Shown piece by piece: positions 7,371 to 18,164 of a stretch of DNA of 20,762 nucleotides. The stretch's first letter is position 1. The number at the start of each line of letters is the position of its first letter. The translations under genes and the position numbers were made by a program. Under the pieces are notes generated by a model. That model saw nothing but the letters and a program-made list of their open reading frames with translations. It was not told the DNA's origin and did no database searches. Source of the DNA: a virus; the IMG/VR virus record IMGVR_UViG_3300046010_001393, positions 1-20,762 of that record; one strand, given 5' to 3'.

Positions 7371-8348
7371 ATGCCACAGCCAAATATCAATAGCGTTCAC
7401 ATTGATGCTATTCTCACAAACATCTCGGTTGCTTATTTACAGAACCAAGATAACTTCATTGCAGACAAGGTATTCCCAGTTATTCCTGTGGATAAGAAGT
7501 CTGACAAATACTTCACCTACACCAAGAACGATTGGTTCCGTGACGAGGCTCAGCGCCGCGCACCTGGAACTGAATCTGCTGGTGGCGGATACAACCTTTC
7601 AACTGGAACATACTCAGCAGATGTCTGGGCGTTCCACAAGGATGTAGATGACCAGACACTTGCTAACGCAGACTCACCTTTGAACCCTCTCCGTGAGGCG
7701 ACAGAGTTCGTTACTCGCCGTTTGATGCTTCGCCGCGAACTTCAGTTCGTAAGCGACTTTTTCACAACTGGCGTATGGGCTGACGATGTAACAGGTGTTG
7801 CTGGCGCTCCATCATCAGGCGAGACAAAGCATTGGTCAGATTACGCATCATCAGACCCAATCGCTGACATCGAGTCAGGTAAGGCTGAGATTCTTGGTAA
7901 TACAGGAATGGAAGCAAACACACTCGTTCTCGGATACGATGTATTCAAGGCTCTTAAGAATCACCCAGACCTTGTAGACCGTATCAAGTACACATCTTCA
8001 CAGACAATCACAACCGATATGCTCGCGGCAATGTTCGACATTCCACGCGTTATGGTTGCAAAGGCTGTTAAGGCAACAAACAACGAAGGCGCATCAGAGG
8101 CTTACGGCTTTGCATTTGGCAAGGGCGCACTCCTTACCCATGTTGCTCCAAACCCAGGACTTCTAACACCATCAGCGGGTTACACATTCGCTTGGACAGG
8201 TGTTTCAGGTGGTCTCGGACAGACTGTTGGAACTTCACAGTTCCGCATGGAGTCAATCAAGTCAGACCGCATTGAAGCGGAAATGGCATTTGATAACAAG
8301 GTAATCGGAGCAGACCTCGGTTACTTCTGGAACACAATCGTTGCATAA
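7371..8348 (+). CDS. Major capsid protein
   Basis: A 325-residue protein with the layout of a phage major head protein: an N-terminal arm (INSVHIDAILTNISVAYLQNQDNFIADKVFPVIPVDKKSDKY), a charged loop (NDWFRDEAQRRAPG), and a helix like the HK97-fold spine helix (PLREATEFVTRRLMLRRELQFVSDFF), then repeated beta segments and a C-terminal domain ending ADLGYFWNTIVA. No long N-terminal delta domain is present, so scaffold function probably lies in the separate upstream protein. A GGGGG-containing SD (around 7354-7360) precedes the ATG. A strong intrinsic terminator follows. Fold class is inferred from motif pattern and position. Confidence 0.88.
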   Translation: MPQPNINSVHIDAILTNISVAYLQNQDNFIADKVFPVIPVDKKSDKYFTYTKNDWFRDEAQRRAPGTESAGGGYNLSTGTYSADVWAFHKDVDDQTLANADSPLNPLREATEFVTRRLMLRRELQFVSDFFTTGVWADDVTGVAGAPSSGETKHWSDYASSDPIADIESGKAEILGNTGMEANTLVLGYDVFKALKNHPDLVDRIKYTSSQTITTDMLAAMFDIPRVMVAKAVKATNNEGASEAYGFAFGKGALLTHVAPNPGLLTPSAGYTFAWTGVSGGLGQTVGTSQFRMESIKSDRIEAEMAFDNKVIGADLGYFWNTIVA

Positions 8349-9320: not shown

Positions 9321-9866
9321 ATGGCACTACCAGCATCCCTTTCAACCGTAACGGTGGCTGGTACCTATGTAGATTTATTGGGTAATCCAGTTCGAGGTTC
9401 AATCACTTTTGAGCCTCAGACCATCCTGAAGGAAAAGACTCTCAATGTCCACATCATGCCAGTTCATATCGTTAAGACATTAGATGCAACAGGCTCTTTC
9501 TCGATTACCCTACCCGTCACCTCTGATACAGATGTGACCCCACAACCTTTTGTTTACACCATAGTTGAAAACTTTACCTCTGGTCGTACATTTCAGATTG
9601 CGCTACCTCTTTCAGTTGCAGGTACTACACAGAACCTTGCTGACCTGCTTACAGCCCTTTCTGAGTCCGATGCGGCTTCTTACATTACTACCGACCAGTA
9701 TCAAGGTCTATTAACCCGCTACAACGATGCAAGCGGTATTAGAGAGATTGTTGTCAATGCCTCAGATTATGAAGGCAACGCCTTGGCTTACGCAACAGCC
9801 GCTTCAAAAGCGGCTAGTTCAGTAGCAAATTTCACTACTAATCAGTTAATGATGATGGGAGTATAA
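9321..9866 (+). CDS. Fibre-like protein A (beta domain plus Ala/Ser stalk)
   Basis: A 181-residue protein: an N-terminal beta domain of about 110 residues (STVTVAGTYVDLLGNPVRGSITFEP, TGSFSITLPVTSDTDV, FVYTIVENF), an Ala/Ser stalk (YATAASKAASSVA), then a hydrophobic end NQLMMMGV. The beta domain is clearly related to that of the 225-residue protein at 10065, pointing to gene duplication. Such domains look like the Ig- or transthyretin-like modules in phage fibres. It starts two bases after the preceding stop without a strong SD. Head or tail attachment is undecided. Confidence 0.7.
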   Translation: MALPASLSTVTVAGTYVDLLGNPVRGSITFEPQTILKEKTLNVHIMPVHIVKTLDATGSFSITLPVTSDTDVTPQPFVYTIVENFTSGRTFQIALPLSVAGTTQNLADLLTALSESDAASYITTDQYQGLLTRYNDASGIREIVVNASDYEGNALAYATAASKAASSVANFTTNQLMMMGV

Positions 9867-9867
9867 A

Positions 9868-10065
9868 GTGGCAGAGCCTTATGTACCGATAGCCGAATAC
9901 ACCGCTTCAAATACCCTTTTAACAGCCCTAGAAGGGGCTACAGATGCCTCTGAGACTAACGCTGATGCTTTGAGTGCGGCAACTGCCAGCGCCCTTGCAT
10001 CTAAGAATTCAGCCGAAACTGTTGAGCAGTCTAAGTTCGACTTATTATTCTTGGTAGGTGCGTAA
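9868..10065 (+). CDS. Short stalk-like protein (65 residues)
   Basis: Starts with GTG behind GGGAG and encodes a 65-residue protein made almost entirely of Ala/Ser/Thr/Asn-rich helix (NADALSAATASALASKNSAET), ending in KFDLLFLVGA. It looks like the isolated stalk and C-terminal end of the flanking paralogues without their beta domain. It lies between them, with the next start overlapping its stop (TAATG). It could be a fibre subunit that co-assembles with the neighbours, or a remnant of a duplicated gene; intact reading frame and SD favour a working gene. Confidence 0.62.
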   Translation: MAEPYVPIAEYTASNTLLTALEGATDASETNADALSAATASALASKNSAETVEQSKFDLLFLVGA

Positions 10066-10742
10066 TGGCTCTAGGTCCAAACCTAACTTCAGTTACCGTA
10101 ACTGGCTCCTATGTAGATTTTGAAGGCACACCAATTGAAGGTCAGATTCGCTTTAGTATTGGTGAGGTCTTGCGTAATGGTACAGATGACCAGATGGTTG
10201 CTCCATCTAGCGTGGTCGTGCCTTTGAGTTCAGGTTCATTCTCTGTATCGCTTCCAGCGACCAACGACCCAGATGTAGTGCCTAATCCTTTTATCTACAC
10301 AGTTGAAGAATCATTTCCCAATGGTCGTACCTACTCAATTAGCATCCCTTACACCACAGTTGGTTCTCTCGATTTAGCAGACATTAGCCCAGACCCATCG
10401 CTATCTGAAACATTCGTACAGGCAGTAGACCAAACTTCTTGGGATTCTCTTGAGTCCAATATTACTGCCCTTGATGCTTTGATTGACCAGTCTACGGATA
10501 CTTTCCCAGCATCAGGCGAATACTGGTATATCGGTTCTGCCTATGCTACATATACAGCGTTAGATACGGCTTTTGCAACCTACACCGCTCTCACCGCGGC
10601 TTCCTATAACATCTCGGGTGAGGACATTGGAACATTCGTAACTTCAGCGCAAGGTTACGCGGCTTCAGCATCATCAAGCGCAACAACAGCCTCAAATAAC
10701 TCGGCTGGTACTATTAGTCCATTATTACTCATCGGAGGATAA
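10065..10742 (+). CDS. Fibre-like protein B, paralogue of the protein at 9321
   Basis: A 225-residue protein whose first 110 residues match the 9321 product in order and pattern (TSVTVTGSYVDFEGTPIEGQIRF, SGSFSVSLPATNDPDV, FIYTVEESFPNGRTYSISIP). A longer middle follows, with ATYTAL repeats (about residues 165-180) and an Ala/Ser stalk (YAASASSSATTASNNSAG), then the end SPLLLIGG. The beta domain is probably a fibre base or capsid-binding part and the stalk a trimeric helix. The last codons (ATC GGA GGA TAA) also provide the SD for the next gene. Function is inferred from composition and context. Confidence 0.7.
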   Translation: MALGPNLTSVTVTGSYVDFEGTPIEGQIRFSIGEVLRNGTDDQMVAPSSVVVPLSSGSFSVSLPATNDPDVVPNPFIYTVEESFPNGRTYSISIPYTTVGSLDLADISPDPSLSETFVQAVDQTSWDSLESNITALDALIDQSTDTFPASGEYWYIGSAYATYTALDTAFATYTALTAASYNISGEDIGTFVTSAQGYAASASSSATTASNNSAGTISPLLLIGG

Positions 10743-12073: not shown

Positions 12074-13072
12074 GTGTCACTAATAGGTCGTTTGTTAAAG
12101 GCTAACCCGTCAGCGCAAGTTTCAGATATGCTGACGGGGTATTTCGTCATTCCTTCTGCAAAAGGCGCGGCTACGGCACCCGTTTCGGGCAGAGGAATTT
12201 TTGCTGGTGGAAACACTAGCGGAACAGGCGCTCCTAATAGTCCTATTATTGATTATATTACTATCGAAACCCTTGGTAACGCTACAAGTTTTGGTCAGTT
12301 AGCAACTGGCAAAAGAGGTGGACCTAAAGGTGGTGGTTCATCAACTAGGGCAGTCATGGGTGGTGGATACGGTTCAAATTATTCAAGTGACATTGAATAT
12401 ATAACTATTGCTACTACTGGTAACGCTACAAGTTTTGGTAGTTTATCAACAGCAAGAGAAGGTCACGCGGGAGCAAGTAATTCAACAAGAGCCTTGATTG
12501 GCTCTGGTGGCGGTCCTAGTGGTGCTTTACTTAGTATGGAATATGTAACTATAGCCTCAACTGGTAATGGTACAAATTTTGGAGATACAACAGTAGGTCG
12601 TAGTGAATCCTCTGCTACTGCTTCACCAACAAGAGCCTTGGTTGCTGGAGGTTATACATCTGGTCCTAAACTAAGTAGTATTGATTATTACACTATTGAT
12701 AGCGCTAGTGCCGCCACAAATTTTGGAAATTTAACAGTAGCAAGGGCTAATGTTGGGTCTTGTTCAAACGGAATTAGAGGAGTGTTTGCTGGTGGCGATA
12801 ATGGAACAGCATACATAAATGTTATGGATTATGTAACCATCGCCTCAACTGGTAATGCAACTGACTTCGGTGATTTAACGGTAGGAAAATTTGGTACTTT
12901 GGCTACATCAGGTGGAAGTCGAGGAGTATTTGCTGGAGGTTATTCAACGACTCAAACTTCCACAATTGATTATGTTTCTATACCTACTACTGGCAACGGT
13001 ACAAATTTTGGTAATTTAACTGAACCTAGATATGGTGCTTTTGGTGGTTCCAGCGCACATGGAGGTCTGTAA
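12074..13072 (+). CDS. Propeller-like adhesin I, six repeats
   Basis: A 332-residue protein starting with GTG behind TAGGAG. A 35-residue N-terminal part (ANPSAQVSDMLTGYFVIPSAKG) is shared with the next protein. Then come six repeats of about 49 residues, each with a [ID]-[YF]-[VI]-[TS]-I-x-x-x-G-N-A-T-x-F-G-x-L strand, an R, a S-x-x-[ST]-R-[GA] turn and a G-G-x end. It finishes SSAHGGL. Six repeats of this length with a GG hairpin look like a Kelch-like six-bladed beta-propeller, which commonly binds carbohydrate or protein. I infer a virion adhesin. The last codons contain the SD for the next gene. Confidence 0.75.
   Translation: MSLIGRLLKANPSAQVSDMLTGYFVIPSAKGAATAPVSGRGIFAGGNTSGTGAPNSPIIDYITIETLGNATSFGQLATGKRGGPKGGGSSTRAVMGGGYGSNYSSDIEYITIATTGNATSFGSLSTAREGHAGASNSTRALIGSGGGPSGALLSMEYVTIASTGNGTNFGDTTVGRSESSATASPTRALVAGGYTSGPKLSSIDYYTIDSASAATNFGNLTVARANVGSCSNGIRGVFAGGDNGTAYINVMDYVTIASTGNATDFGDLTVGKFGTLATSGGSRGVFAGGYSTTQTSTIDYVSIPTTGNGTNFGNLTEPRYGAFGGSSAHGGL
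12191..13069 (+). repeat. Six-repeat propeller-like module 1
   Basis: Six in-frame repeats, average about 49 residues, ending HGGL. Repeat cores: TIETLGNATSFGQL, TIATTGNATSFGSL, TIASTGNGTNFGDT, TIDSASAATNFGNL, TIASTGNATDFGDL and SIPTTGNGTNFGNL. Confidence 0.85.
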
Positions 13073-14934
13073 TGTCTTACTTGCCACAAATTAGAATCCT
13101 TGTGCCATCCGCTCAAGTATCTAGTTACACAACTGGAACTTTTAGTTTGCCAAGCGCCAAGCAAGGATTTATTCTACCTGCATATCTAGCAGTATTAAAT
13201 GCTGGTACTGGAACTGGTTCCCTACAAGAATTGAACTTAACAACAGCAGGAAACGCAGTAAATTTTGGAAACGCTTACAACGATAGCCAGCCATCAGCAT
13301 CAGGGAATACTGTTATCTCAGTAATGGCTGGCGGTGCAGACGGACCATGGACAAGTCTTGTTTTCTCAACAAGAGGAAACAGCACTCTATTCGGCAGTAT
13401 GCAGACAAACTCTTATGCTACGGCAACAGTAAGTTCTGATACAAGAGGAATTCTTTCAGGTGGAGACAGAGATGGTCTAAAGAGCCGTCTTGAATATGTA
13501 ACATTTGCATCTCAAGGTAACGGTACATTTTTTGGAACTGGTGCCACAATATTTACCCACGCAGGTGTTCAATCTACGACCCGTGGAGTATACGGTGGCG
13601 GTATTTCTGGTTCTAGCAGACAAAGCCGCATGGATTACATCACTATGGCTACTACTGGAAACACTACAAGTTTTGGTGATTTAACAGTAGCGAGAGGACA
13701 ACTTGCTGGAACTTCTTCTAATACTCGAGGTTTATTTGCTGGTGGAGATACTCCTGCATATAACATCATTGATTATATTACTATCGCTTCAACGGGAAAT
13801 GCTACAGATTTCGGTGATTTGACTGTTGCTCGTTTTGTTTTGGGAGGGGCTACAAATCAAACAGTAGGAGTTTTTGCAGGTGGAAACTCAACAAATAATG
13901 CAATAATAGATTCTGTAAACATTGCTACTTTAGGTAATGCTTCATCTTGGGGTTCTCTTACAACAGGAAAAAATTTAGGTCCTGCTCAATCATCTCAAGC
14001 CCACGGCGGTATTGATATTTCAGGAATCACATTCCCAGTAATAGGCGAAAAGGCTATGTTCTTTGGAGGTATACCTTCAGGATGGACAAATACGGTTGAT
14101 TTTGTAGCAATTGCTTATCTTGGAGATGCCCGTGACTTCGGAGATTTAAGTATTGTAAAACGAGGAATGACTAACGGAACTGTGTCTACCAGTTCACGCG
14201 CCGTTGTTGCAGGTGGAGATACCACATCTGATGTACTTCAGGGAGGTATTGAATACTTCTCATGGGCAACAAGTGGAAATGCTACTTCTTTTGGCAATTT
14301 ATCTGTTTCGAGAATGTATCTTGGTGGAGCATCTAATTCTACCGTTGGTCTACACGCTGGCGGTACAGGCGGCGGCGGCGGCTCATTCTATTCAAATGTT
14401 ATTGACTACATAACTATCGCCGCATCTGGTAACGCAACAGATTTTGGTGACCTCACCGCTCAAAGAGGTTTTGTCACAGGCTTGGCTTCTACAACCCGCG
14501 CTTGTTTTTCAGGAGGATTTACACCTTCATCGGCTACAACGGAAATTCAATATGTAACAATTGCCTCTGCTGGAAATGCTACTAACTTTGGAGCATTAAC
14601 TGTTGCTCGCTATCAAGCAGAATCTCTTGCCAATTCAACTCGCGGAGTCGTAGCGGGTGGCTATGCAGGTGGTAGTAGCAATGTTATTGACTACTTCACA
14701 ATTGCTTCTACAGGAAATGCTACAGATTTTGGTGATTTAACTGGCGCTTCTTATTCTGGCGCTGGAGCGGCAGGTTCAACAAGGGGGTTGTTTGCTAAAG
14801 GGTATCAAGCAGGAGCGGTTTCTGGAATTGACTACATAACCATTCAATCCGCTGGAAATGCCGCTAGTTTTGGCAGTCTAAGTCAAGCACGATACGATTT
14901 ATCAGGAGCATCTAATTCACATGGAGGACTATAA
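13072..14934 (+). CDS. Propeller-like adhesin II, two six-repeat modules
   Basis: A 620-residue protein overlapping the preceding stop (TAATG), with GGAGG six bases upstream. The N-terminal part (VPSAQVSSYTTGTFSLPSAKQGF) is homologous to that of the preceding protein. Two six-repeat modules follow; the first ends SQAHGGI, and after a short linker (DISGITFPVIGEK) the second ends SNSHGGL. The first two repeats of module 1 are the most divergent (LNLTTAGNAVNFG, VFSTRGNSTLFG). Probably two tandem beta-propellers for binding a host surface structure. The gene looks like the result of duplication of the neighbour. No enzymatic motif is visible. Confidence 0.75.
   Translation: MSYLPQIRILVPSAQVSSYTTGTFSLPSAKQGFILPAYLAVLNAGTGTGSLQELNLTTAGNAVNFGNAYNDSQPSASGNTVISVMAGGADGPWTSLVFSTRGNSTLFGSMQTNSYATATVSSDTRGILSGGDRDGLKSRLEYVTFASQGNGTFFGTGATIFTHAGVQSTTRGVYGGGISGSSRQSRMDYITMATTGNTTSFGDLTVARGQLAGTSSNTRGLFAGGDTPAYNIIDYITIASTGNATDFGDLTVARFVLGGATNQTVGVFAGGNSTNNAIIDSVNIATLGNASSWGSLTTGKNLGPAQSSQAHGGIDISGITFPVIGEKAMFFGGIPSGWTNTVDFVAIAYLGDARDFGDLSIVKRGMTNGTVSTSSRAVVAGGDTTSDVLQGGIEYFSWATSGNATSFGNLSVSRMYLGGASNSTVGLHAGGTGGGGGSFYSNVIDYITIAASGNATDFGDLTAQRGFVTGLASTTRACFSGGFTPSSATTEIQYVTIASAGNATNFGALTVARYQAESLANSTRGVVAGGYAGGSSNVIDYFTIASTGNATDFGDLTGASYSGAGAAGSTRGLFAKGYQAGAVSGIDYITIQSAGNAASFGSLSQARYDLSGASNSHGGL
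13186..14010 (+). repeat. Six-repeat propeller-like module 2
   Basis: Six repeats averaging about 46 residues, ending HGGI. Its first blades are divergent, while blades 4 and 5 (TMATTGNTTSFGDL, TIASTGNATDFGDL) match the consensus. Confidence 0.82.
14044..14931 (+). repeat. Six-repeat propeller-like module 3
   Basis: Six repeats averaging about 49 residues, ending HGGL. Cores include AIAYLGDARDFGDL, SWATSGNATSFGNL, TIAASGNATDFGDL and TIASTGNATDFGDL. Confidence 0.85.
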
Positions 14935-14935
14935 A

Positions 14936-15787
14936 ATGGATATTGAAAAATCAAACGAGAGGCACTTTATGGAAATCGCATTACAAGAGGTTAGTAACGA
15001 ATTAGCAATAACTCCTGAGTACAAAGGGATGTTGGAGCATATCAATGCCAATCTTCCTGCTATTAGCAGAGATTCTGAAAACTTTCACAAATCAGCATCT
15101 CAATTTAAGAATGTAACTTTAGATGTTACTGACCTAACTCCAATGGGTTCTTTGAAGCATATCTTGGCGGTAATTGACCGTACCCGTTCAGCATTAGAAG
15201 AAGCACATATTTCTGTAAAACGCAAGCAAATTGAATTAAAGAAAAAAACTCAAGAATACGACAATGCTGATGATGGCTATGAGAAAGAACTTCTTTGGGT
15301 TGATATTGTTGAAATTAACAATCATCTAAATAATTTTGAAAACTCAGTTAAGGGCGCTTTGCGTAAATTAAGTTTTTTTACTACTCAGTATCAAGCCATG
15401 ATGGAAAAATTGGGCAAAGATGAAATTACTGAAGAAGATTATGAATTAAATGAATCTCGTCACCATGTAATGACAGCCATGAAACAAGCCCTTAATGCGG
15501 CTCGTACTAGAGGCGGTCTTATAGACGAGGGTAATCATATTTATTTATTTGATATGGGAATCAATGGAGCAGTTGCTCAAGCAGAAATTTTCGCTTATTT
15601 ACAGGCAGAACAAGAAATGCTTGCAAAAGGCGAGGAACCAACCCACGAACTCACAGTCAGATGGTTAGAGGCTTGCGCCGATAAGTTTGCTGATTGCGGG
15701 GCTAAGTTCGCTGAACTCCGTGGTTTCATTCCACTAGACAAGAAATCACTAGCAAAGGAGATTACAAGTGGCAAAGAAAATAATTAG
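14936..15787 (+). CDS. Helical protein of unknown function after the adhesins
   Basis: I choose ATG 14936, because GGAGG (14923-14927) is eight bases upstream; the in-frame ATG at 14921 overlaps that SD. The 283-residue product is almost all charged helix, with a coiled-coil-like central part (DRTRSALEEAHISVKRKQIELKKKTQEYD) and a C-terminal half rich in Ala/Glu helices. It carries no signal peptide, membrane helix or catalytic motif. Directly following the adhesin genes, it might be a fibre-assembly chaperone or a fibre-attachment protein, but this rests only on position. I do not recognise the family. Confidence 0.7.
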   Translation: MDIEKSNERHFMEIALQEVSNELAITPEYKGMLEHINANLPAISRDSENFHKSASQFKNVTLDVTDLTPMGSLKHILAVIDRTRSALEEAHISVKRKQIELKKKTQEYDNADDGYEKELLWVDIVEINNHLNNFENSVKGALRKLSFFTTQYQAMMEKLGKDEITEEDYELNESRHHVMTAMKQALNAARTRGGLIDEGNHIYLFDMGINGAVAQAEIFAYLQAEQEMLAKGEEPTHELTVRWLEACADKFADCGAKFAELRGFIPLDKKSLAKEITSGKENN

Positions 15788-16064
15788 TTACAAACTAAAT
15801 GAGGATGGAACAATTCCATCTTATGTTGAAAATGGCGGTTTTTTAGCGAAAGATGCTAATGACACACCAAACATGGTTGTACTTGGCGTTTCTTTTGACG
15901 GAGAAGATATTTCAGGAGCAGAGTCAGAATTTGCAACAGAGGCAGATGCCTTGGCATTTGTATCAACCTATTTAAGCGATACAACATATACAGATTCTTC
16001 GGGTCAAACTAGAGAATTTGTAGTTGCCGATGCGGTAGCAGACCTATTTGCTAAACTAGCGTAA
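15768..16064 (+). CDS. Hypothetical protein, 98 residues
   Basis: Starts with GTG behind AAAGGAG (spacing seven), overlapping the end of the helical protein gene by 20 bases. N-terminal beta stretch (KKIISYKLNEDGTIPSYVENGGFL), then an acidic middle and an alpha/beta end (ADALAFVSTYL, EFVVADAVADLFAKLA). It resembles small proteins found beside phage fibre genes, without a known role. No cysteines or motifs. It may be a fibre accessory or assembly factor; confidence in function is low, in the gene fair. Confidence 0.65.
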   Translation: MAKKIISYKLNEDGTIPSYVENGGFLAKDANDTPNMVVLGVSFDGEDISGAESEFATEADALAFVSTYLSDTTYTDSSGQTREFVVADAVADLFAKLA

Positions 16065-17355: not shown

Positions 17356-17763
17356 ATGGCTCAAACATTCTCATTTGAAATTGATGGGGCAGAGCAACTA
17401 CGCCATGTTTTAGAGGTATCAGGCAGGGATGCTGGCAAAGTAGTTGGTCAAGTAATCCTTGAAGAAGCCAATATGATTTTTGCTAAAGCCATGATTTTGA
17501 CCCCTATTGATACAGGCGCTTTGCGTGGCTCAGGCGGAGTCTCGGCTCCTATGAATACTCCTCAAGGCATCGGAGTTGATATTTTCTTTGGTGGACCAGC
17601 GGCTCCATACGCCCTTTATGTCCATGAGATTATGTACTACAAGCACAATGCTCCAACACAGGCTAAATATCTTGAGCAACCTTTCATGGAGAGATTGCCA
17701 GATATTCAGCGAAACATGGCACAGCGTATTATTGACCTAATCAGAAAGAACGGGGCAGTCTAA
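17356..17763 (+). CDS. HK97 gp10-like neck/tail-completion protein
   Basis: A 135-residue protein with the features of the HK97 gp10 family: an N-terminal helix after FEIDGAEQLRHVLE, then ILTPIDTGALRGSGGVSAPM (TPxDTGALR is a signature of the family), a beta region with PAAPYALYVHE, and a C-terminal helix (ERLPDIQRNMAQRIIDLIRKN). These proteins join the tail to the neck. Two bases after the preceding stop, and its stop overlaps the next ATG. Confidence 0.85.
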   Translation: MAQTFSFEIDGAEQLRHVLEVSGRDAGKVVGQVILEEANMIFAKAMILTPIDTGALRGSGGVSAPMNTPQGIGVDIFFGGPAAPYALYVHEIMYYKHNAPTQAKYLEQPFMERLPDIQRNMAQRIIDLIRKNGAV

Positions 17764-18164
17764 TGGCAACAATCCTAGAATCCATAGGGGATTACTTGGT
17801 GACCAATAGCCTTGGCACCCTCGGTACGAATCTATTTCTTGGCACCTTGCCTGAGTCCCCAGATGTCTGTACAGCAGTCTTTGAAAACTCTGGAACTCCA
17901 CCAGCCTTCACAATGGGTGTAGGTGGCATCGCAATTGACTATCCAATGCTTCAAGTTATCTGTCGTGCTGGTCGTGAAGATTATCCAACGGCGCGAGATG
18001 CAGTTGAGACGATTCGAAACTTGCTTGCTTCGGTAACTGATGTCACAATTTCCAATGTCCAGATTTTGCGTATAGAACCAATGGGTAGTGTAAATCCATT
18101 GGGAGTAGACCCAAAACAGCGACCACTATTATCGGTGAATTTTCGATGTCTAGTGAGGAAATGA
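17763..18164 (+). CDS. Tail terminator protein
   Basis: A 133-residue alpha/beta protein: ESIGDYLVTNSLGTLGTNLFLGTLPESPDVCTAVFENSG at the N-terminus, IDYPMLQVICRAGREDYPTARDAVETIRNLLA in the middle and NVQILRIEPMG, then LLSVNFRCLV at the end. This matches the minor-capsid/tail-terminator family that caps the tail tube. Position after gp10-like is as expected. The start overlaps the preceding TAATG stop. Genes for a tube or sheath would normally follow but are absent here. Confidence 0.8.
   Translation: MATILESIGDYLVTNSLGTLGTNLFLGTLPESPDVCTAVFENSGTPPAFTMGVGGIAIDYPMLQVICRAGREDYPTARDAVETIRNLLASVTDVTISNVQILRIEPMGSVNPLGVDPKQRPLLSVNFRCLVRK

Follow-up and report, generated by a model that had tools for sequence, protein, structure and literature searches.

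Kelch propellers are already known in phages (PMC5259590, PMC7760394), and one such protein, CBB_552, was found in CBB virions (PMC5259590). Propellers are also known from receptor-binding proteins, as in phi11 and in the earlier cases of PRD1 P2 and phiKZ gp131C (PMC4901313). We analyzed a virus record of 20,762 bases, which may be a fragment and is called the window here, in which two adjoining genes, A (12074..13072) and B (13072..14934), encode proteins built of propeller-like repeats; these genes, their parts, and the two genes that follow them are all on the + strand. From the analyses below, we consider it quite probable that A and B encode tailed-phage adhesins of modular build, in which six-bladed Kelch-type heads would be mounted on an anchor, would carry a variable and likely host-binding face, and could be exchanged for other heads.

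Gene A (332 aa, GTG start) consists of an N-terminal anchor (residues 1-29, 12074..12160) and one six-bladed Kelch-like propeller of six repeats (12182..13051), in which blade 1 is closed by the C-terminal strand; its last residues, 329-332, form the closing motif HGGL (CAT GGA GGT CTG, 13058..13069). Gene B (620 aa) carries an anchor (residues 1-29, 13072..13158), which is 48% identical to that of A, and two six-bladed Kelch-like propellers, the first at residues 38-310 (13183..14001) and the second at residues 325-616 (14044..14919). An internal HGGI lies at the propeller junction, in a low-confidence linker (residues 311-314, CAC GGC GGT ATT, no GGAGG, 14002..14013), and HGGL closes the protein (residues 617-620, CAT GGA GGA CTA, 14920..14931). 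An earlier note on this DNA had divided eighteen repeats over two genes into three sets of six ending in HGGL, HGGI, and HGGL; the repeats are all in frame, with six falling in A and twelve in B, and all three endings are found at the positions it gave. The period of 46-49 residues that it proposed is roughly right, the actual spacing being mostly 46-51 with one short repeat of 42, while its start at 12191 falls within blade 1 of A, and the feature is better drawn as the whole genes (12074-14934). The repeat consensus, R..LAGASNS / TRGVFAGG / loop / IDYITIASTGNATDFG / DLTVAR, is the Kelch pattern of beta-1, beta-2 ending in GG, beta-3, and beta-4 with an aromatic residue. No tandem repeats were found at the DNA level in the window, and the same codon occurs at shared repeat residues with a frequency of 0.46 as against 0.40 expected. 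The absence of DNA tandem repeats and a codon match near expectation are indicative that the repeats are old and were kept at the protein level; a recent repeat expansion is ruled out by the former, and the codon comparison agrees.

Relatives were drawn from IMG/VR and from genome contigs, and their repeats were called by a repeat HMM, which returned 849 unique repeats in related contigs; with hundreds of repeat units present in related contigs, the repeats of A and B are not a product of chance. Exactly 6, 12, or 18 repeats were counted in 138 of the 155 complete non-redundant ORFs (107, 30, and 1, respectively), and the ORFs with other counts were mostly one blade off, owing to weak or doubled HMM hits, or short and broken. 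The number of modules shifts between slots, with 6 blades in A and 12 in B in the window and in L010; in L009, the long gene comes first (11 of 12 blades detected) and the 6-blade gene second, and in L006, each of the two genes has 6 blades. Blade position gave no further support for the register, as blade i was not clearly nearer to its positional equivalents in other proteins than to blades at other positions. Six or seven separate six-blade propeller genes in a row, with other kinds of N-terminal anchor, were noticed in three loci (L042 2290-10670, L050 36-7722, and L025 2517-9251). Most of the relatives are uncultured phages; in the cultured-phage collection, the sole relative is a distant one, in Synechococcus phage S-SKS1 (about 30%).

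AlphaFold2, supplied with 68 aligned relatives, predicted A as one closed six-bladed propeller (pLDDT 89.4, pTM 0.85), the first 35 residues of the model being poorly defined. In the PDB, this model is matched best by Kelch domains, those of KLHL12 and KEAP1, and by designed Kelch proteins with six blades (lowest E 4e-22; TM to target, about 0.9). B was modeled as two propellers (pLDDT 80, pTM 0.54) with Kelch structural matches as for A, and its low-confidence linker (310-324) falls exactly at HGGI. Structure prediction had been named as the check for six-bladed closure, which was predicted with high confidence for A in a model that matches solved Kelch propellers; on these models, A and B are Kelch-like propellers, and the earlier note was right about the fold. 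The solenoid that it had named as the opposing fold is ruled out by the closed six-blade model and the counts of 6, 12, and 18. A PDB sequence search with B and with the family profile gave no match, so that the Kelch assignment rests on the predicted fold and the repeat pattern. Against Pfam Kelch_1, A scored E 0.0034 and 17.3 bits, below the cut-off of 20.1; no Pfam Kelch match was obtained for B, and none at E 0.001 in the 68 relatives. As the Pfam cut-off is not reached, we describe the proteins as Kelch-like by fold and do not file them as members of the Pfam sequence family. HGG can be aligned to the point where a seventh repeat would begin (SNS-HGGL vs SNS-TRGV) and, in the predicted structures, is the truncated start of that repeat, the C-terminal strand giving beta-1 of blade 1 (Velcro closure). 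The completion of blade 1 by this C-terminal beta-1 would explain why each set ends at HGG.

In the four-stranded antiparallel Kelch blade, the DA and BC loops lie on one side and the AB and CD loops on the other. Over the 849 repeats, the mean entropy was 3.27 bits in the DA loop (after R) and 3.38 bits in the BC loop (after GG), compared to 2.11 bits in the AB loop, 1.40 bits in the CD loop, and 0.76-2.66 bits in the strands; BC-loop insertions were present in 433 of the 849 repeats, and the GG after beta-2 and the F-G at the start of beta-4 were near-invariant. The per-site entropies agree with the earlier observation, made on the eighteen repeats of the window, that variation is highest after R and after GG. 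Taken together with the Kelch topology, the loop entropies indicate that one propeller face is variable and the other conserved, and by this analogy the variable DA and BC loops of the A and B propellers are expected to share one face. The suggestion that this is a binding surface which changes quickly gains support, at the level of sequence, from the variable loop pair and from the swapping of modules described below. The loops also bear on the notion that the propellers are enzymes, e.g., galactose-oxidase-like or a glycan-degrading Kelch enzyme. Some Kelch propellers are indeed enzymes, and the structural matches include a Pseudomonas phage protein that bears the name galactose oxidase. Nevertheless, the invariant columns of the 68-protein alignment are Gly and Phe residues belonging to the repeat core, most near-invariant residues reappear in blade after blade, in the manner of structural residues, the loops that would hold an active site are the most variable part, and the best PDB matches are binding domains; we regard an enzymatic role as very unlikely.

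The conservation of A and B is concentrated in the anchor. Among the nearest relatives, identity over residues 1-29 is 83-100% (97-100% in A and 83-90% in B), whereas that of the propellers, in A of the whole remainder, is 42-51%; the flanking genes of these loci are mostly 55-94% identical. Anchor relatives were sought by DNA pattern. L081 and L083 are about 99% identical in DNA up to the end of the anchor and have nothing in common beyond it, every 30-nt window between -360 and nt 90 (gene numbering) being 93-100% identical; past the shared anchor, L083 encodes a propeller and L081 an unrelated 207-aa protein, and in L082 a related anchor bears a third head. The L082 gene (3444-4607) joins an A-type anchor to a repeat protein that by eye resembles another propeller class and has no Pfam match. 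DUF7483 proteins fill the slot before the partner gene, described below, in L131 and L138, and the anchor of an L047 propeller gene matches a “concanavalin A-like lectin” of phage DSL-LC04 (39%, E 4e-4). In Desulfobacter vibrioformis DSM 8776 (L069 450-4229), a lambda-J-like tail tip protein (phrog_31 E 1.5e-85, PF13550) ends in a six-bladed propeller belonging to the family of A and B; this locus lies in an isolate genome and is a possible cultured test case. A and B have the conserved N-terminal anchor and exchangeable C-terminal head that characterize receptor-binding proteins, and neither a trimerization domain nor a fiber shaft was identified in them. The anchor/head swaps and the lambda-J-like fusion amount to the behavior of exchangeable receptor-binding heads, and the heads of A and B are, judging from these sequence comparisons, most probably exchangeable receptor-binding modules; the binding that the earlier note proposed for the propellers is, on the same comparisons, likely.

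Kelch domains of eukaryotes and poxviruses are mostly intracellular adaptors, and KLHL12 is the best structural match of A. Conceivably, the propellers could act inside the cell, e.g., as protein-binding adaptors against host factors like the poxvirus Kelch proteins, and would then not be parts of the virion. The design of anchor and exchangeable head, the fusion to a lambda-J-like tail tip, the structural genes as neighbors, and the Kelch protein contained in CBB virions (PMC5259590) make this highly improbable. In the adhesin mechanism that we favor, the conserved anchor of about 29 residues would mount one (A) or two (B) six-bladed propellers, each closed by its C-terminal strand, just ahead of HGG, which would complete blade 1. 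On every blade, the DA and BC loops would point to one common face, and this variable face would most likely bind the host surface, the specificity shifting via loop change, via gain or loss of six-blade modules, or via a swap of the whole head at the anchor junction. The repeats, their grouping in sixes, the contrast between conserved anchor and variable head, the head swaps, and the linkage of the genes were observed directly, and the fold is predicted with high confidence; host-receptor binding, the identity of the binding face, and the attachment of the anchor to the virion are what we infer from these comparisons.

The gene neighborhood bears on which part of the virion would carry the adhesins. 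In the window, small adhesin-like genes run between the capsid genes, with the major head (capsid) protein gene at 7371-8348, and the neck genes (17356-18164); A and B lie between these two groups in the window and not in a tail-fiber block, and the propeller genes of the nearest relatives likewise lie between capsid and neck genes. The capsid-side position makes a head-fiber position possible, and other phages, e.g., phi29, have head-fiber genes next to that for the capsid protein. The propellers could then be head fibers or capsid decoration for weak, reversible attachment to cells or surfaces rather than tail adhesins that trigger infection, a reading favored both by the position of A and B and by that precedent. 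Elsewhere, however, propellers have a tail context (L006, L047, and L069). Nearly the same cassette (partner gene 91%) adjoins tail fiber and collar genes in L006, the L047 cassette is located behind a T7-like tail fiber gene, which is followed by three propeller genes, and the L069 propeller ends the lambda-J-like protein. We therefore consider head fibers unlikely and retain the tailed-phage adhesin as the preferred reading. Kelch-propeller heads are, in any case, found beside capsid, T7-like, and lambda-J-like genes. Two further adjoining genes of the window (9321-9866 and 10065-10742, together 9321-10742) have a common N-terminal domain, PHROG 14726 (tail fiber), and are perhaps a further modular adhesin set. 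A DGR check for the reverse transcriptase family gave no match among the scanned genes of the 20.8 kb window, a possible fragment.

The ends of both genes carry GGAGG within the Gly-Gly codons of HGG. At the end of A (CAT GGA GGT CTG TAATG), GGAGG (13061..13065) is the likely Shine-Dalgarno sequence of gene B, with a 6 nt spacer and a TAATG overlap, and at the end of B (CAT GGA GGA CTA TAA AATG), GGAGG (14923..14927) is likely that of the next gene, with an 8 nt spacer to the ATG at 14936; the Gly-Gly codons of the internal HGGI are GGC GGT. Taking a terminal HGG with a start codon 4-11 nt behind it as a coupled end, we found GGAGG in 101 of the 119 coupled HGG ends of the relatives. By comparison, it occurs in 14 of the remaining 134 HGG sites, made up of 12 of 97 uncoupled ends and 2 of 37 internal ones, and in 225 of the 1015 GG pairs within blades. 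The coupled and other HGG sites differ with a Fisher p of about 1e-35, in which independence is overstated as the sequences are related, but the contrast is large. The spacing from GGAGG to the start codon is mostly 6-9 nt, which is typical of Shine-Dalgarno sequences. On this reading, the start of the gene behind B would be 14936 and not 14921. The terminal Gly-Gly codons of HGG likely double as the Shine-Dalgarno sequence of the next gene. HGG might instead be a protein motif only, one that terminates the closing strand or acts as a docking tag for the partner protein, with the Shine-Dalgarno match as a side effect of codon use. It is kept with other codons where no gene starts behind it, 35 of the 37 internal sites being without GGAGG, and HGG ends accompany one partner-protein subtype (197 of 206 gene ends vs 0 of 16), a comparison that is confounded by relatedness. 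The frequency of GGAGG at coupled ends, set against the other HGG sites and the blade GG pairs, renders a purely protein-level motif improbable. As the protein motif persists where GGAGG does not, both constraints seem real, and the two roles of HGG can hold together; a closing motif that overlaps a ribosome-binding site would be a clear small case of dual coding.

The gene behind B (14936..15787, about 283 aa), helix-rich by sequence and phrog_1409-like, is the conserved partner gene; its ORF start was listed at 14921, and 14936 is likelier. A small gene of 98 aa (15768..16064) usually lies behind it, and both accompany propeller genes across very different phages. A search with the partner gene gave 76 non-redundant loci, and in 69 of them it adjoins propeller genes by the distance cut-offs applied. 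Five partner loci lack a propeller in the available stretch. Three of these are truncated by the end of the contig; in the other two (L131 and L138), the partner gene follows DUF7483 adhesins, which rules out that it is strictly propeller-specific. It had no PDB match and no consistent Pfam match, its sole family match being phrog_1409, annotated as of unknown function, and IMG/VR has at least 483 stretches with a relative of it, which makes it a good marker for such loci. Its retention with different heads leads to the guess, from sequence context, that the partner protein may be an assembly or mounting factor. In seven loci (L021, L025, L027, L046, L061, L069, and L070), the propellers have SGN/SGD-like ends and not HGG; such ends accompany a distant partner subtype (under 30%), with the same confounding by relatedness in the counts given above for the two subtypes. 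More tentatively, and with less confidence than we attach to the adhesin reading itself, the locus might be a head-shuffling cassette, in which the HGG codons would serve as strand end and ribosome-binding site, a module could either end its gene and start translation of the next or be fused in frame to another propeller, and the helical partner would assemble or mount any head present in the slot.

In comparison with known systems, A and B are similar to the Kelch propellers of KLHL12, KEAP1, and the designed SAKe proteins in having six blades of four strands each, GG following beta-2, aromatic-G at beta-4, a C-terminal beta-1 as the closing strand, and variable BC and DA loops. They differ from these in their low identity (about 14-19%, below Pfam cut-offs), in being without BTB/BACK domains, and in features of their own, namely the repeat signature IDYITIASTGNATDFGDLT and the HGG terminus. 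CBB_550/552/554 and BcepSaruman, the latter a structural match, also represent phage-encoded Kelch propellers, but these Kelch-like proteins are only about 14-22% identical to A and B, and anchors with exchangeable heads, modules of 6, 12, and 18 repeats, and the partner gene are unreported for them in the sources searched. In the phi11 receptor-binding protein (five-bladed), PRD1 P2, and phiKZ gp131C (seven-bladed), propellers were proposed or shown to be host-recognition domains (PMC4901313); these have other blade numbers and repeat families than A and B, and the phi11 protein is trimeric and includes helical stem and tower domains, neither of which is seen in A and B. PHROG 19111 and PHROG 26444 are members of this repeat family (E 4e-11 and 4e-10 against B) and are annotated as of unknown function, with no fold or role described. 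The sources searched hold no description of the repeat family, the 6/12/18 modules, the head swaps, the joining of genes, or the dual role of HGG. Naming the repeats as exchangeable Kelch-propeller heads would give the study of host recognition a testable entry point for many environmental phages. In essence, the kind of protein is known, and the repeat family, the head swapping, and the gene coupling appear to be new within the sources searched.
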